Below are positions 33,030 to 38,384 of a stretch of DNA of 64,000 nucleotides, piece after piece. Made by a program: the position numbers and the translations under genes. Origin of the DNA: Janibacter corallicola NBRC 107790 (GTDB lineage: Bacteria > Actinomycetota > Actinomycetes > Actinomycetales > Dermatophilaceae). How positions within the stretch are numbered: position 1 is the stretch's first letter; each line of letters opens with the position of its first letter. The notes under the pieces are model-generated. The model had not been told where the DNA came from and made no database searches. It saw nothing but the letters and a program-made list of their open reading frames with translations. The stretch is taken from assembly GCF_001570965.1 (NCBI RefSeq), contig NZ_BCSR01000002.1, positions 1-64,000 on the forward strand, written 5' to 3'.

Positions 33030-33098
33030 CGCCGGGGTCGCGCCCCGGCACTTTCACGAGGCGTCATATAGCGGTCGCCCGTGGGAAGGAAGATCACC

Positions 33099-34124
33099 GT
33101 GCTCATCGCACAGCGCCCGATCCTCAGCGAAGAGGTCCTCGCCGACAACCGTTCGCGGTTCGTCATCGAGCCCCTCGAGCCGGGCTTCGGTTACACCATC
33201 GGCAACTCCCTGCGTCGCACCCTGCTCTCGAGCATCCCGGGTGCCTCGCTCACCTCGATCCGCATCGACGGCGTCCTCCACGAGTTCTCCACCATCCCGG
33301 GGGTGAAGGAGGACGTCACCGAGATCATCCTCAACCTCAAGGGGCTGGTCGTCTCCAGCGAGAACGACGAGCCGGTCGTGATGTACCTGCGCAAGTCCGG
33401 CGCCGGTGCCGTCACCGCCGCGGACATCAACCCGCCGGCCGGTGTCGAGGTGCACAACCCCGACCTGCACATCGCCACGCTCAACGACAAGGGCTCCGTC
33501 GAGATGGAGCTGACCGTCGAGCGCGGTCGTGGCTACGTCTCCGCACAGCAGAACAAGAGCGGCGACCAGGAGATCGGCCGGATCCCGGTCGACTCGATCT
33601 ACTCGCCGGTGCTGGCCGTGACCTACAAGGTCGAGGCCACGCGAGTGGAGCAGCGGACCGACTTCGACAAGCTGATCGTGGACGTCGAGACGAAGAACTC
33701 CATGGTTCCCCGGGACGCGCTGGCCTCCGCCGGCAAGACCCTGGTCGAGCTCTTCGGCCTGGCACGCGAGCTGAACATCGAGGCCGAGGGCATCGACATG
33801 GGCCCGTCCCCGACGGACGCCGCGATGGCCGCCGACATGGCCCTGCCGATCGAGGACCTGGACCTGACCGTCCGCTCCTACAACTGCCTCAAGCGCGAGG
33901 GCATCCACAGCGTGGGTGAGCTCGTCGGGCGCAGCGAGGCGGACCTGCTCGACATCCGCAACTTCGGCGCGAAGTCGATCGACGAGGTCAAGGCGAAGCT
34001 GCACGACATGGGCCTGGCCCTCAAGGACAGCCCGCCCGGGTTCGACCCGAGCACCGCGGACTACGAAGAGTACGACGAGCCCGGTGACGAGGATGCCTCG
34101 TTCGCCGAGGACGAGCAGCTCTGA
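33099..34124 (+). CDS. rpoA: RNA polymerase subunit alpha
   Basis: Alpha, 341 residues, dimerises to nucleate core polymerase assembly and its C-terminal domain contacts activators and UP elements. [48 protein letters not shown] is the N-terminal assembly domain. The C-terminal domain has [44 protein letters not shown]. The GTG at 33099 follows GGAAGGAAG; an in-frame GTG at 33081 precedes that site and is unlikely. The tail is acidic. Confidence 0.98.
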
Positions 34125-34185
34125 ACCACCTCGAGTGACCTGACCGCTGCCGCGGTGAGGTCTGACAGCTCCCAAGGAGAACATC

Positions 34186-34878
34186 ATGCCCACCCCCACC
34201 AAGGGTCCCCGTATCGGCGGAGGTCCGGCTCACGAGCGGCTGATCCTCGCGAACCTGGCCACGTCCCTCTTCGAGAACGACCAGCTGACGACCACCCAGG
34301 CCAAGGCCAAGCGGCTGCGCCCGCTGGCCGAGCGGCTGATCACCTTCGCCAAGCGCGGTGACCTGGCCTCGCGCCGCAGGGTCATGACGGTCGTGAAGGA
34401 CAAGGGCGTCGTCCACCGCCTGTTCGTGGAGATCGCGCCCGACGTGGCCGACCGTCCCGGTGGCTACACCCGGATCACCAAGATCGCCCCGCGCAAGGGC
34501 GACAACGCCCCGATGTGCGTCATCGAGCTCGTCCGCGAGCCGGTCGACGCCAAGCCGAAGCGCGCGGTCGTCAAGGAGGCGGAGGGCGCCGCCAAGCGCT
34601 CCGCCAAGGACGCGGCTGCCGAGCAGGAGGCCACCGAGGCCCCGGCCGAGGACCTGCCCGAGGGTGCCGTCAAGGCGCTCGAGGATGGTGCCGCGCCGAG
34701 TGACGAGTACACCGTCAAGGGCAACCTCGACTCGCAGAAGTACCACGTCGCCGGTTCGCAGTGGTTCGACTCGACCGTCGCCGAGGTCTGGTTCAAGACC
34801 GCCGACGAGGCCAAGGCGGCCGGCTTCGAGCCGGCTGGTGGCGAGAGCAAGCAGCAGGAGTCCGACGAGGAGGCCTGA
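34186..34878 (+). CDS. rplQ: 50S ribosomal protein L17 (bL17) with C-terminal sunset-like domain
   Basis: The protein has 230 residues against ~120 for ordinary L17. Residues 1-120 are normal L17 ([45 protein letters not shown]). Residues 121-172 form a Lys/Ala- then acidic Ala/Glu-rich linker. Residues 174-216 carry VKGN, KYH, GSxWFDxT, VWFxT and EAKAAGF, the pattern of the sunset domain, a small module seen at C-termini of other bacterial proteins. L17 sits at the tunnel exit, so the module would project from the ribosome surface there. I see no frameshift. A strong terminator follows. Confidence 0.93.
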
Positions 34879-37389: not shown

Positions 37390-37833
37390 ATGCGCACCCA
37401 CACAACCAAGGGCGGTGAGATCACCCGTCAGTGGCACGTCATCGACGCCACCGACGTGGTCCTCGGTCGTCTCGCGACGCAGGCGGCGACGCTGCTGCGC
37501 GGCAAGCACAAGACCAACTTCGCCCCCTACCTGGACTGCGGCGACTTCGTCATCGTCATCAACGCCGAGAAGGTCGCCCTGACCGGCGCGAAGGCGGAGC
37601 AGAAGCGCGCCTACCGCCACTCCGGATTCTCCGGCGGACTGTCGTCCTCCAGCTACGCCGAGCTGCTCGAGAAGAACCCCGAGCGCGCCGTCGAGAAGGC
37701 CATCCGCGGCATGCTGCCGAGCAACAGCCTCGGCCGCCAGCAGCTGGGCAAGCTGAAGGTCTATCGCGGGGCCGAGCACCCGCACGGTGCCCAGCAGCCG
37801 ACCCCCTACACGATCTCGCAGGTCGCGCAGTAA
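37390..37833 (+). CDS. rplM: 50S ribosomal protein L13 (uL13)
   Basis: L13 has 147 residues and is one of the first proteins to join the assembling 50[63 protein letters not shown] and [13 protein letters not shown] are characteristic. The ATG at 37390 is the conserved start. It forms an operon with rpsI, 32 bases downstream. Confidence 0.98.
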
Positions 37834-37865
37834 GCGCCGCCGAGAAGGAACCAGAGGCAATTATC

Positions 37866-38384
37866 GTGGCTGACACCACCGACAACGCACCGCAGACCCA
37901 GGACCTCGAGGGCGAGGAGCCCCAGCTGTCCTCCTACACCTCCGAGTCCCAGGGCCCGGTCGGCGACGCCGCGCCCGTGGCCCGCCCCTCGGCCTCCGCG
38001 CCGGGCTCCGGCACCGGCCGCCGCAAGCAGGCCGTCGCCCGCGTCCGGATCGTCCCGGGCAGCGGCGAGTGGCAGGTCAACGGCCGCTCGCTGGAGGAGT
38101 ACTTCCCGAACAAGGTCCACCAGCAGGTCGTGAACGAGCCGCTCGTCGCGCTCGAGCTCGACGGCGCCTACGACGTGCTCGTGCGCGTCCACGGCGGTGG
38201 CCCCTCCGGCCAGGCCGGGGCCGTCCGCCTCGGCGTCGCCCGTTCGTTGAACGGCGTGGACCCGGACACCAACCGCCCGACCCTGAAGAAGGCCGGTTAC
38301 CTCACCCGTGACGCCCGCGTCCCGGAGCGCAAGAAGGCCGGTCTGAAGAAGGCCCGCAAGGCACCGCAGTACAGCAAGCGCTGA
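37866..38384 (+). CDS. rpsI: 30S ribosomal protein S9 (uS9)
   Basis: S9 has 172 residues; its C-terminal tail, ending PQYSKR here, contacts P-site tRNA. The conserved core begins at about residue 50 ([32 protein letters not shown]). The ~48-residue acidic, Pro/Ser-rich N-terminal extension is usual in actinobacteria. The GTG start follows the rplM stop by 32 bases. Confidence 0.97.

Follow-up and report, generated by a model that had tools for sequence, protein, structure and literature searches.

NCBIfam holds a set of models for proteins that carry a sunset domain: NF051448 for ribosomal protein L17, NF051449 for L4, NF051450 for L20, NF051451 for S2 and NF051433 for ArfC. A described structure is also at hand in the Cutibacterium acnes 70S ribosome, in which L4 (PDB 8crx chain e) ends in the same module as the L17 studied here. 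This L4 is the sole PDB sequence that matches the sunset profile at E <= 10 (8crx_e and five further entries), with a match over residues 232-290 of the 301 in 8crx_e at E 1.5e-23. The part of the structural report concerned with the uL4 C-terminal extension gives it as solvent-exposed, 100 residues longer than in E. coli, lacking density and likely disordered, and names no domain in it (PMC10085706). The missing density agrees better with a folded bead on a slack tether than with a part that is docked.

Two relatives are known in other settings. The Cys-paired sunsets of predicted secreted proteins have the same 42-position domain, but differ in a Cys pair (CPxxxPIKGN ... ExCF and similar) that the type in our DNA lacks, in a more basic charge (median +2 in 25 domains under a looser definition) and in carriers with a predicted signal peptide or lipoprotein-like start. 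The Ada_Zn_binding domain PF02805 (N-terminal domain of Ada; 1u8b, 1wpk, 1zgw) has a metal site of four Cys around zinc; its motif order in profile alignment is that of the sunset domain, whereas its Cys metal ligands have no equivalent in the type described below.

Here we compare with these systems the rplQ gene of Janibacter corallicola NBRC 107790, which lies in a stretch of 64,000 nucleotides that was analysed whole and is called the window. The L17-sunset fusion is already catalogued as NF051448, as a first-pass annotation made from the letters alone had suggested it might be. The NCBIfam models name the fusion only and do not explain its origin and purpose, and a full-text search of open-licence PMC papers for the domain name and the accessions returned no biological paper. 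The present analysis contributes the derivation from Ada, the exchange of sequence among ribosomal genes, further carriers and a topology rule for the two types.

The L17 gene and its extension

The gene order is rpoA, rplQ, truA, and rplQ starts with ATG. The features are:

33081..34124, + strand, rpoA, the upstream gene of the same cluster (ORF), used for the genus tree
34174..34179, + strand, AAGGAG, likely ribosome-binding site, read from the sequence
34186..34878, + strand, rplQ, ribosomal protein L17, sunset variant, 230 aa, open frame, NF051448 match of 330.4 bits
34186..34539, + strand, L17 core, residues 1-118, net charge +10 (PF01196 / TIGR00059)
34540..34656, + strand, A/E/K-rich linker, residues 119-157, the fastest-evolving part (pN/pS, 8 Janibacter)
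34657..34704, + strand, conserved pre-domain, residues 158-173, counterpart of YGxGSxxPxxDGSxP in other carriers (97-segment alignment, column table)
34714..34839, + strand, sunset domain, residues 177-218 (NF051437, AlphaFold2 model of residues 143-230)
34840..34875, + strand, acidic end, residues 219-230, a version of which is left behind after domain deletion (remnant tails in J. hoylei, J. indicus, G752, G754 and G722)

The first-pass annotation had read the gene as an ordinary L17 fused to a C-terminal sunset-like module and had proposed an HMM search, which bears this out. The sunset profile NF051437 matched residues 177-218 of the 230 over profile positions 1-42 of 42 with 66 bits against a cut-off of 27 (69 bits in the whole-genome search), and the protein matched NF051448 ('50S ribosomal protein L17, sunset domain variant') over residues 1-218, as a full-length match, with a cut-off of 280. 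The core scored 125 bits with PF01196 (cut-off 27) and 115.8 bits with TIGR00059 (cut-off 70), and Pfam recognised L17 alone in the protein. The boundaries given earlier, with the linker from about residue 120 and the module at 174-216, were right to within a few residues; a further conserved stretch lies ahead of the module, at residues 158-173. The extension, described as having normal codon use and no frameshift, is of ordinary third-position composition for the locality: core, linker and sunset domain have GC3 values of 0.93, 0.91 and 0.94, against 0.95 in rpoA, and the frame is open with no shift.

The genome has one L17 match, the gene adjoining rpoA, and one sunset match (whole-genome search, E <= 1), so that, barring trimming, every L17 copy in the strain should bear the module. 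The closest named full-length L17 matches, 77-86% identical, are those of J. terrae, J. limosus, 'J. merdipullorum', J. sp. Soil728 and J. anophelis, and the Marihabitans L17 follows after the Janibacter ones with 75% identity. As a separate observation, ribosomal protein S9 of the window (37830-38384) is extended at its N-terminus by about 60 residues; the part of the C. acnes report that covers uS9 gives an N-terminal extension of 46 residues there (PMC10085706).

Carriers of the domain and their predicted location

All listed sunset loci of the class sample were read. At least one sunset occurs in 73 of its 394 genomes, and the 103 carrier ORFs comprise 21 L4, 14 L17, 3 S2 and 65 others, with a ribosomal carrier in 34 of the 73 sunset genomes. 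The order sample has a sunset in 118 of 396 genomes, and 108 of its loci, a part of all matches, were read. Both samples together give 211 carrier ORFs (61 L17, 50 L4, 6 L20, 3 S2, 3 S16, 4 NuoE, 1 H+-PPase and 83 others), for which the L20, S16 and NuoE assignments were checked by phmmer. In the phylum sample 24 of 246 genomes have a sunset, and among the matches with a locus (all but four) those outside the class add two L22 (L305, L306), one L4 (L326) and one L20 (L304). Outside the phylum, a match was obtained in one of 14 control genomes (Bacillus subtilis). By these matches at least six different ribosomal proteins (L4, L17, L20, L22, S2, S16), from both subunits, bear the module, and its place on the particle therefore seems uncritical. 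Two or three sunset ribosomal proteins occur together in 16 of 123 mapped genomes, a map that is not a census, as it takes in the order sample in part (108 loci) and leaves off some loci of family f11; a rule of one sunset per ribosome was rejected on this count.

The carrier cores of S16 (L139, L143, L159), of both L22 and of NuoE (L111, L123, L157, L164) are recognised by NCBIfam, as is the end of the H+-PPase carrier L190, a fragment with two sunset copies. Sunset-variant models exist there for the ribosomal proteins L4, L17, L20 and S2, and none of the S16, L22, NuoE and H+-PPase carriers matched a sunset-variant model of its own carrier in the NCBIfam search. The ArfC sunset model NF051433 (cut-off 100) is passed by proteins other than ArfC, namely the H+-PPase fragment L190 (119.3) and the L20 of locus L304 (103.5), and also by the two-sunset L17 of locus L223 (126.3).

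Several carriers were noted in their own right. Locus L223 (1501-2391), in a MAG, encodes an L17 with two tandem sunsets, and a Herbihabitans protein (L267) has three copies in a row. Long acidic ORFs with repeated DDWDxxPPALDD-like units end in a sunset at L006, L028, L141, L149 and L173, and DUF5324-like membrane proteins do so at L010 (E 2e-5, just below the Pfam cut-off) and L029 (by eye). At many of the family f11 loci L049-L098 the ORF, about 700 aa long, runs from a membrane segment through R-rich residues into an arm of 160-330 residues with a terminal sunset; the related L042 has LGFP repeats. Four Janibacter loci (L284, L285, L286, L287) encode predicted secreted nucleases, SNase-like by eye, with a Cys-paired sunset at the end.

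The plasmid search returned 3 records, the best being an Arthrobacter megaplasmid with 62% identity over 88% of the query. In the Tsukamurella plasmid record NZ_LR134464.1 the sunset match (210527-210646) overlies annotations for rplQ (L17) and an SRPBCC protein; this is perhaps a chromosomal piece. A phage tblastn with a made-up sunset consensus gave no match, and a scan of viral_contigs for the pattern gave 48 stretches with none confirmed as sunset. PHROGs matched with phrog_21287 (E 0.0016) and phrog_28030 (E 0.065). BFVD has no structure at E <= 0.001; its best rows, both of probability 1.00, are an unnamed one at E 0.019 and Bacillus phage G Gp605 at E 0.030, and 'Metal binding domain of Ada' is the name of two further rows, at E 1.2 and 1.9. 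From the PHROGs and BFVD matches, related folds do occur in phages, which may or may not have been the source of the module.

The Cys pair separates the carriers into two types, being present in 23 of the 83 other carriers and in none of the 123 ribosomal, 4 NuoE and 1 H+-PPase carriers. Topology was estimated by a simple hydropathy scan on stop-to-stop ORFs, in which starts are unannotated and a few hits could come from Ala-rich linkers or from sequence ahead of the real start, and by counting K/R in the 10 residues after and before the membrane segment. A membrane segment was found in 52 of the 60 Cys-less other carriers, with more K/R after it than before in 45, fewer in 5 and a tie in 2. 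The Cys-paired carriers have a hydrophobic segment in 21 of 23, with more K/R after it in none, fewer in 16 and a tie in 5, as for a signal peptide. By this K/R distribution the Cys-less sunsets appear to be cytoplasmic for the most part and often end a long arm, the ribosomal form being one case, and the Cys-paired sunsets look secreted. The earlier description of the domain as one otherwise found at the C-termini of nucleases and surface proteins is therefore right in part: such carriers occur, but the Cys-less type is also found on the ribosomal proteins listed above and on predicted cytoplasmic C-terminal arms.

Relation to the Ada zinc-binding domain

Descent of the sunset domain from the Ada zinc-binding domain, with loss of the metal ligands, is strongly supported by profile comparison and by bridging sequences. 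An alignment of 97 sunset segments (A1) was compared by hhalign with the Ada domains of related genomes (E 1.2e-4, probability 55%) and with small Ada-like proteins (E 2.4e-6, probability 89%), each time in a single comparison. Repeating this under different settings gave weaker values (P 0.0025 and 0.00042), and in both comparisons none of 100 column shuffles reached the real score (maximum 12.5 vs 17.3 and 5.5 vs 21.5). L321 is an unidentified ORF for which membrane segments are predicted; one of its domains scores over the curated cut-offs of both PF02805 (39.8 bits, cut-off 23) and NF051437 (32.8 bits, cut-off 27), which decides the question of common descent. In L323 and L325, by eye SNase-type nucleases, the C-terminus is over the cut-off of PF02805 with 30.3 and 49.4 bits and stays below that of NF051437 with 24.1 and 25.0. 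These bridging forms retain YHxPSC or FHxPSC ... CxxC, whereas the ribosomal form has no Cys. The window domain itself had no Pfam match at E <= 10 and did not reach the gathering score of PF02805, and its relative L203 matched PF02805 with E 0.021 at best. The Ada Cys are conserved in all 5 Ada rows of the alignment, and the residues aligned with them in the sunset domain are H, S, A or other; none of the 123 ribosomal copies has a Cys in the segment. ORFs of about 90-100 residues with LGGHRxxRIYGRLDCP ... PCxxC, related to the Ada domain, were also noted in three genomes of the family, two of them Janibacter (L274, L275, L276).

An AlphaFold2 model of window residues 143-230 based on A1 had pLDDT 76 and pTM 0.63. 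Its top Foldseek match in the PDB was N-Ada 1u8b, a weak one (E 1.5, probability 0.25), and in VIA-align 1u8b (3.6) and 1wpk (3.2) were the sole rows at Z >= 2. A tandem model from 6 sequences shows two well-modelled domains (pLDDT 84, pTM 0.51, with a mean pLDDT of 46-51 in 3 of 5 models). Foldseek placed N-Ada 1wpk first for it, again weakly (E 1.0), and VIA-align gave N-Ada only at Z >= 2 (1u8b 4.0, 1zgw 3.2, 1wpk 3.1). As a comparison of predicted models, the likeness to the N-Ada fold would prove little alone. At that pTM, the tandem model of 6 sequences gave no evidence that two sunset domains pair with each other.

Possible role, exchange and loss

We tentatively propose, at somewhat less than an even chance, that the sunset tail on L17 is a non-essential cytoplasmic docking tag on a flexible arm. 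The tail would be a small Ada-descended domain without metal ligands that ends a flexible acidic arm on the outside of the ribosome and may bind a putative cytoplasmic partner; such binding could place or cluster ribosomes and, in other species, complex I, the proton pyrophosphatase and membrane-anchored arms. Any exposed terminus would do for such a tag, which would explain why it is found on L4, L17, L20, L22, S2 and S16, and docking of the whole particle was chosen as the simplest function that is independent of the attachment site. The proposal draws on this range of carriers in both subunits together with NuoE and H+-PPase, on the lack of a Cys pair in every ribosomal carrier and the fit of most Cys-less membrane carriers to a cytoplasmic arm, and on the C. 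acnes L4 arm, which carries the module and is described in the consulted part of its report as exposed and without density. The five Cys-less membrane carriers contrary to the topology rule and the two ties count against it, as does the failure to find a partner. As the window genome has no second sunset protein, pairing between a ribosomal and a membrane sunset cannot be the mechanism here.

The main rival, which we regard as somewhat improbable, is a near-neutral passenger that spreads through recombining A/E-rich, GC-rich 3' ends, is lost by in-frame deletion through the same repeats and has little effect on the ribosome. Exchange between genes speaks for it. Genome G305 has its L4 and L17 genes on one contig, at a distance of 51 kb, and a block of 255 bp that spans the linker end, pre-domain and sunset is 98.0% identical in nucleotides between the two; in G502 the S16 and L17 genes share 211 bp at 90.5%. 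Among 17 genomes with at least two compared carriers, the domain is closest to that of the same carrier elsewhere in 11, with a tie in G622 and misfits, by reading of the comparison, in G305, G502, G583, G587 and G668, so ordinary inheritance prevails between exchanges. For G305, copying solely from L4 to L17 was set aside: the L17 of G722, of the same genus, ends in the remnant ...SEPAGGEAAQQED, which makes the earlier presence of a sunset on L17 probable, and the 98% block may reflect overwriting in either direction.

Loss within Janibacter speaks for the passenger as well. The mapping across L17 proteins that the first-pass annotation had suggested found the variant on 8 of the 15 L17s recovered from 16 Janibacter genomes. 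Five of the seven genomes without it have no sunset at all, and in G752 and G754 the sole sunset is of the Cys-paired type, on a predicted secreted nuclease (L284, L285; nuclease by eye); none of the seven has another Cys-less copy. The idea that another protein carries the sunset where L17 has lost it is unsupported in Janibacter on these counts. Deletion remnants are retained in two of the seven L17s, ...AAPAGGEAKQQESDEA in J. indicus / G754 and a different one in J. hoylei / G752, which are two distinct in-frame deletions; G722 belongs to a genus other than Janibacter. On a genus tree of rpoA, the L17 core and truA (19 rows) the sunset label changes 6 times, at least 4 of them forced by well-supported branches, and does not cluster more than labels placed by shuffling (216 of 500 shuffles as low). 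With seven of 15 L17s lacking it, and five of those genomes without any, the module can be dispensed with over evolutionary time.

Selection on the copies that are kept argues against a passenger. In the 8 Janibacter L17s the core has a pN/pS (with bootstrap interval) of 0.14 (0.07-0.24), linker residues 119-163 have 0.57 (0.40-0.78), and the sunset, gap-free over 47 columns, has 0.39 (0.17-0.75); the intervals of linker and sunset overlap. Purifying selection on the kept sunset, moderate and weaker than on the core, is strongly supported by these ratios. Residues are near-invariant across carriers and families: in the 123 ribosomal copies K178 is conserved at 98%, G179 at 99%, W202 at 98% and F203, A209 and G213 at 100%, with A212 also within 98-100%. 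The recurrence of the module on NuoE, H+-PPase and membrane proteins likewise stands against a passenger. The selection and the column conservation support the docking tag, and the frequent loss within one genus means that any benefit of it would be conditional. A wider form of the proposal, in which an exapted metal-free Ada-type domain would serve as a movable cytoplasmic address tag, copied by recombination, that holds ribosomes, complex I, H+-PPase and membrane arms to one shared putative scaffold or partner, we consider doubtful.

It is rather unlikely that the tail is for solubility, with an acidic arm that acts as an intramolecular chaperone and shields the basic ribosomal protein before assembly. 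The charges agree with this, the window core (+10) being followed by a linker of -5, a sunset of -4 and an end of -3, and the 123 ribosomal sunset cores having a median of -2 (range -9 to +3). A folded domain is, however, not needed for it, since 41 of the 51 L17s read have no sunset and nearly all 41 have A/E-rich tails by eye, and the sunsets of NuoE and H+-PPase have median charges that are not negative (0 in 4 and +2.5 in 2 domains).

L17 lies near the nascent-chain exit, which a flexible arm could reach, and the first-pass annotation had suggested from this that the module recruits a factor to emerging proteins or acts in hibernation or assembly. Such a role at the L17 site is very improbable, because the same module is on L4, L20, L22, S2 and S16 in other lineages and the C. 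acnes L4 arm is without density in the consulted part of its report; an essential part in assembly or hibernation is made unlikely by the seven Janibacter L17s without the domain, and a conditional one may still be played. A retained Ada-type function in metal or nucleic acid binding, to which the homology and the several Cys-paired relatives on nucleases would point, is scarcely credible for ribosomal copies that are mostly acidic and have His, Ser or other residues, never Cys, at the Ada Cys positions.

The identity of the domain names an unseen arm in a published ribosome structure, that of C. acnes L4. Ribosomal proteins are usually seen as fixed parts, and here one folded module appears on at least six of them, has apparently been exchanged recently between two and is lost within a genus. 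The close relatives with and without the module would thus offer a natural experiment on docking tags that may decorate bacterial ribosomes.
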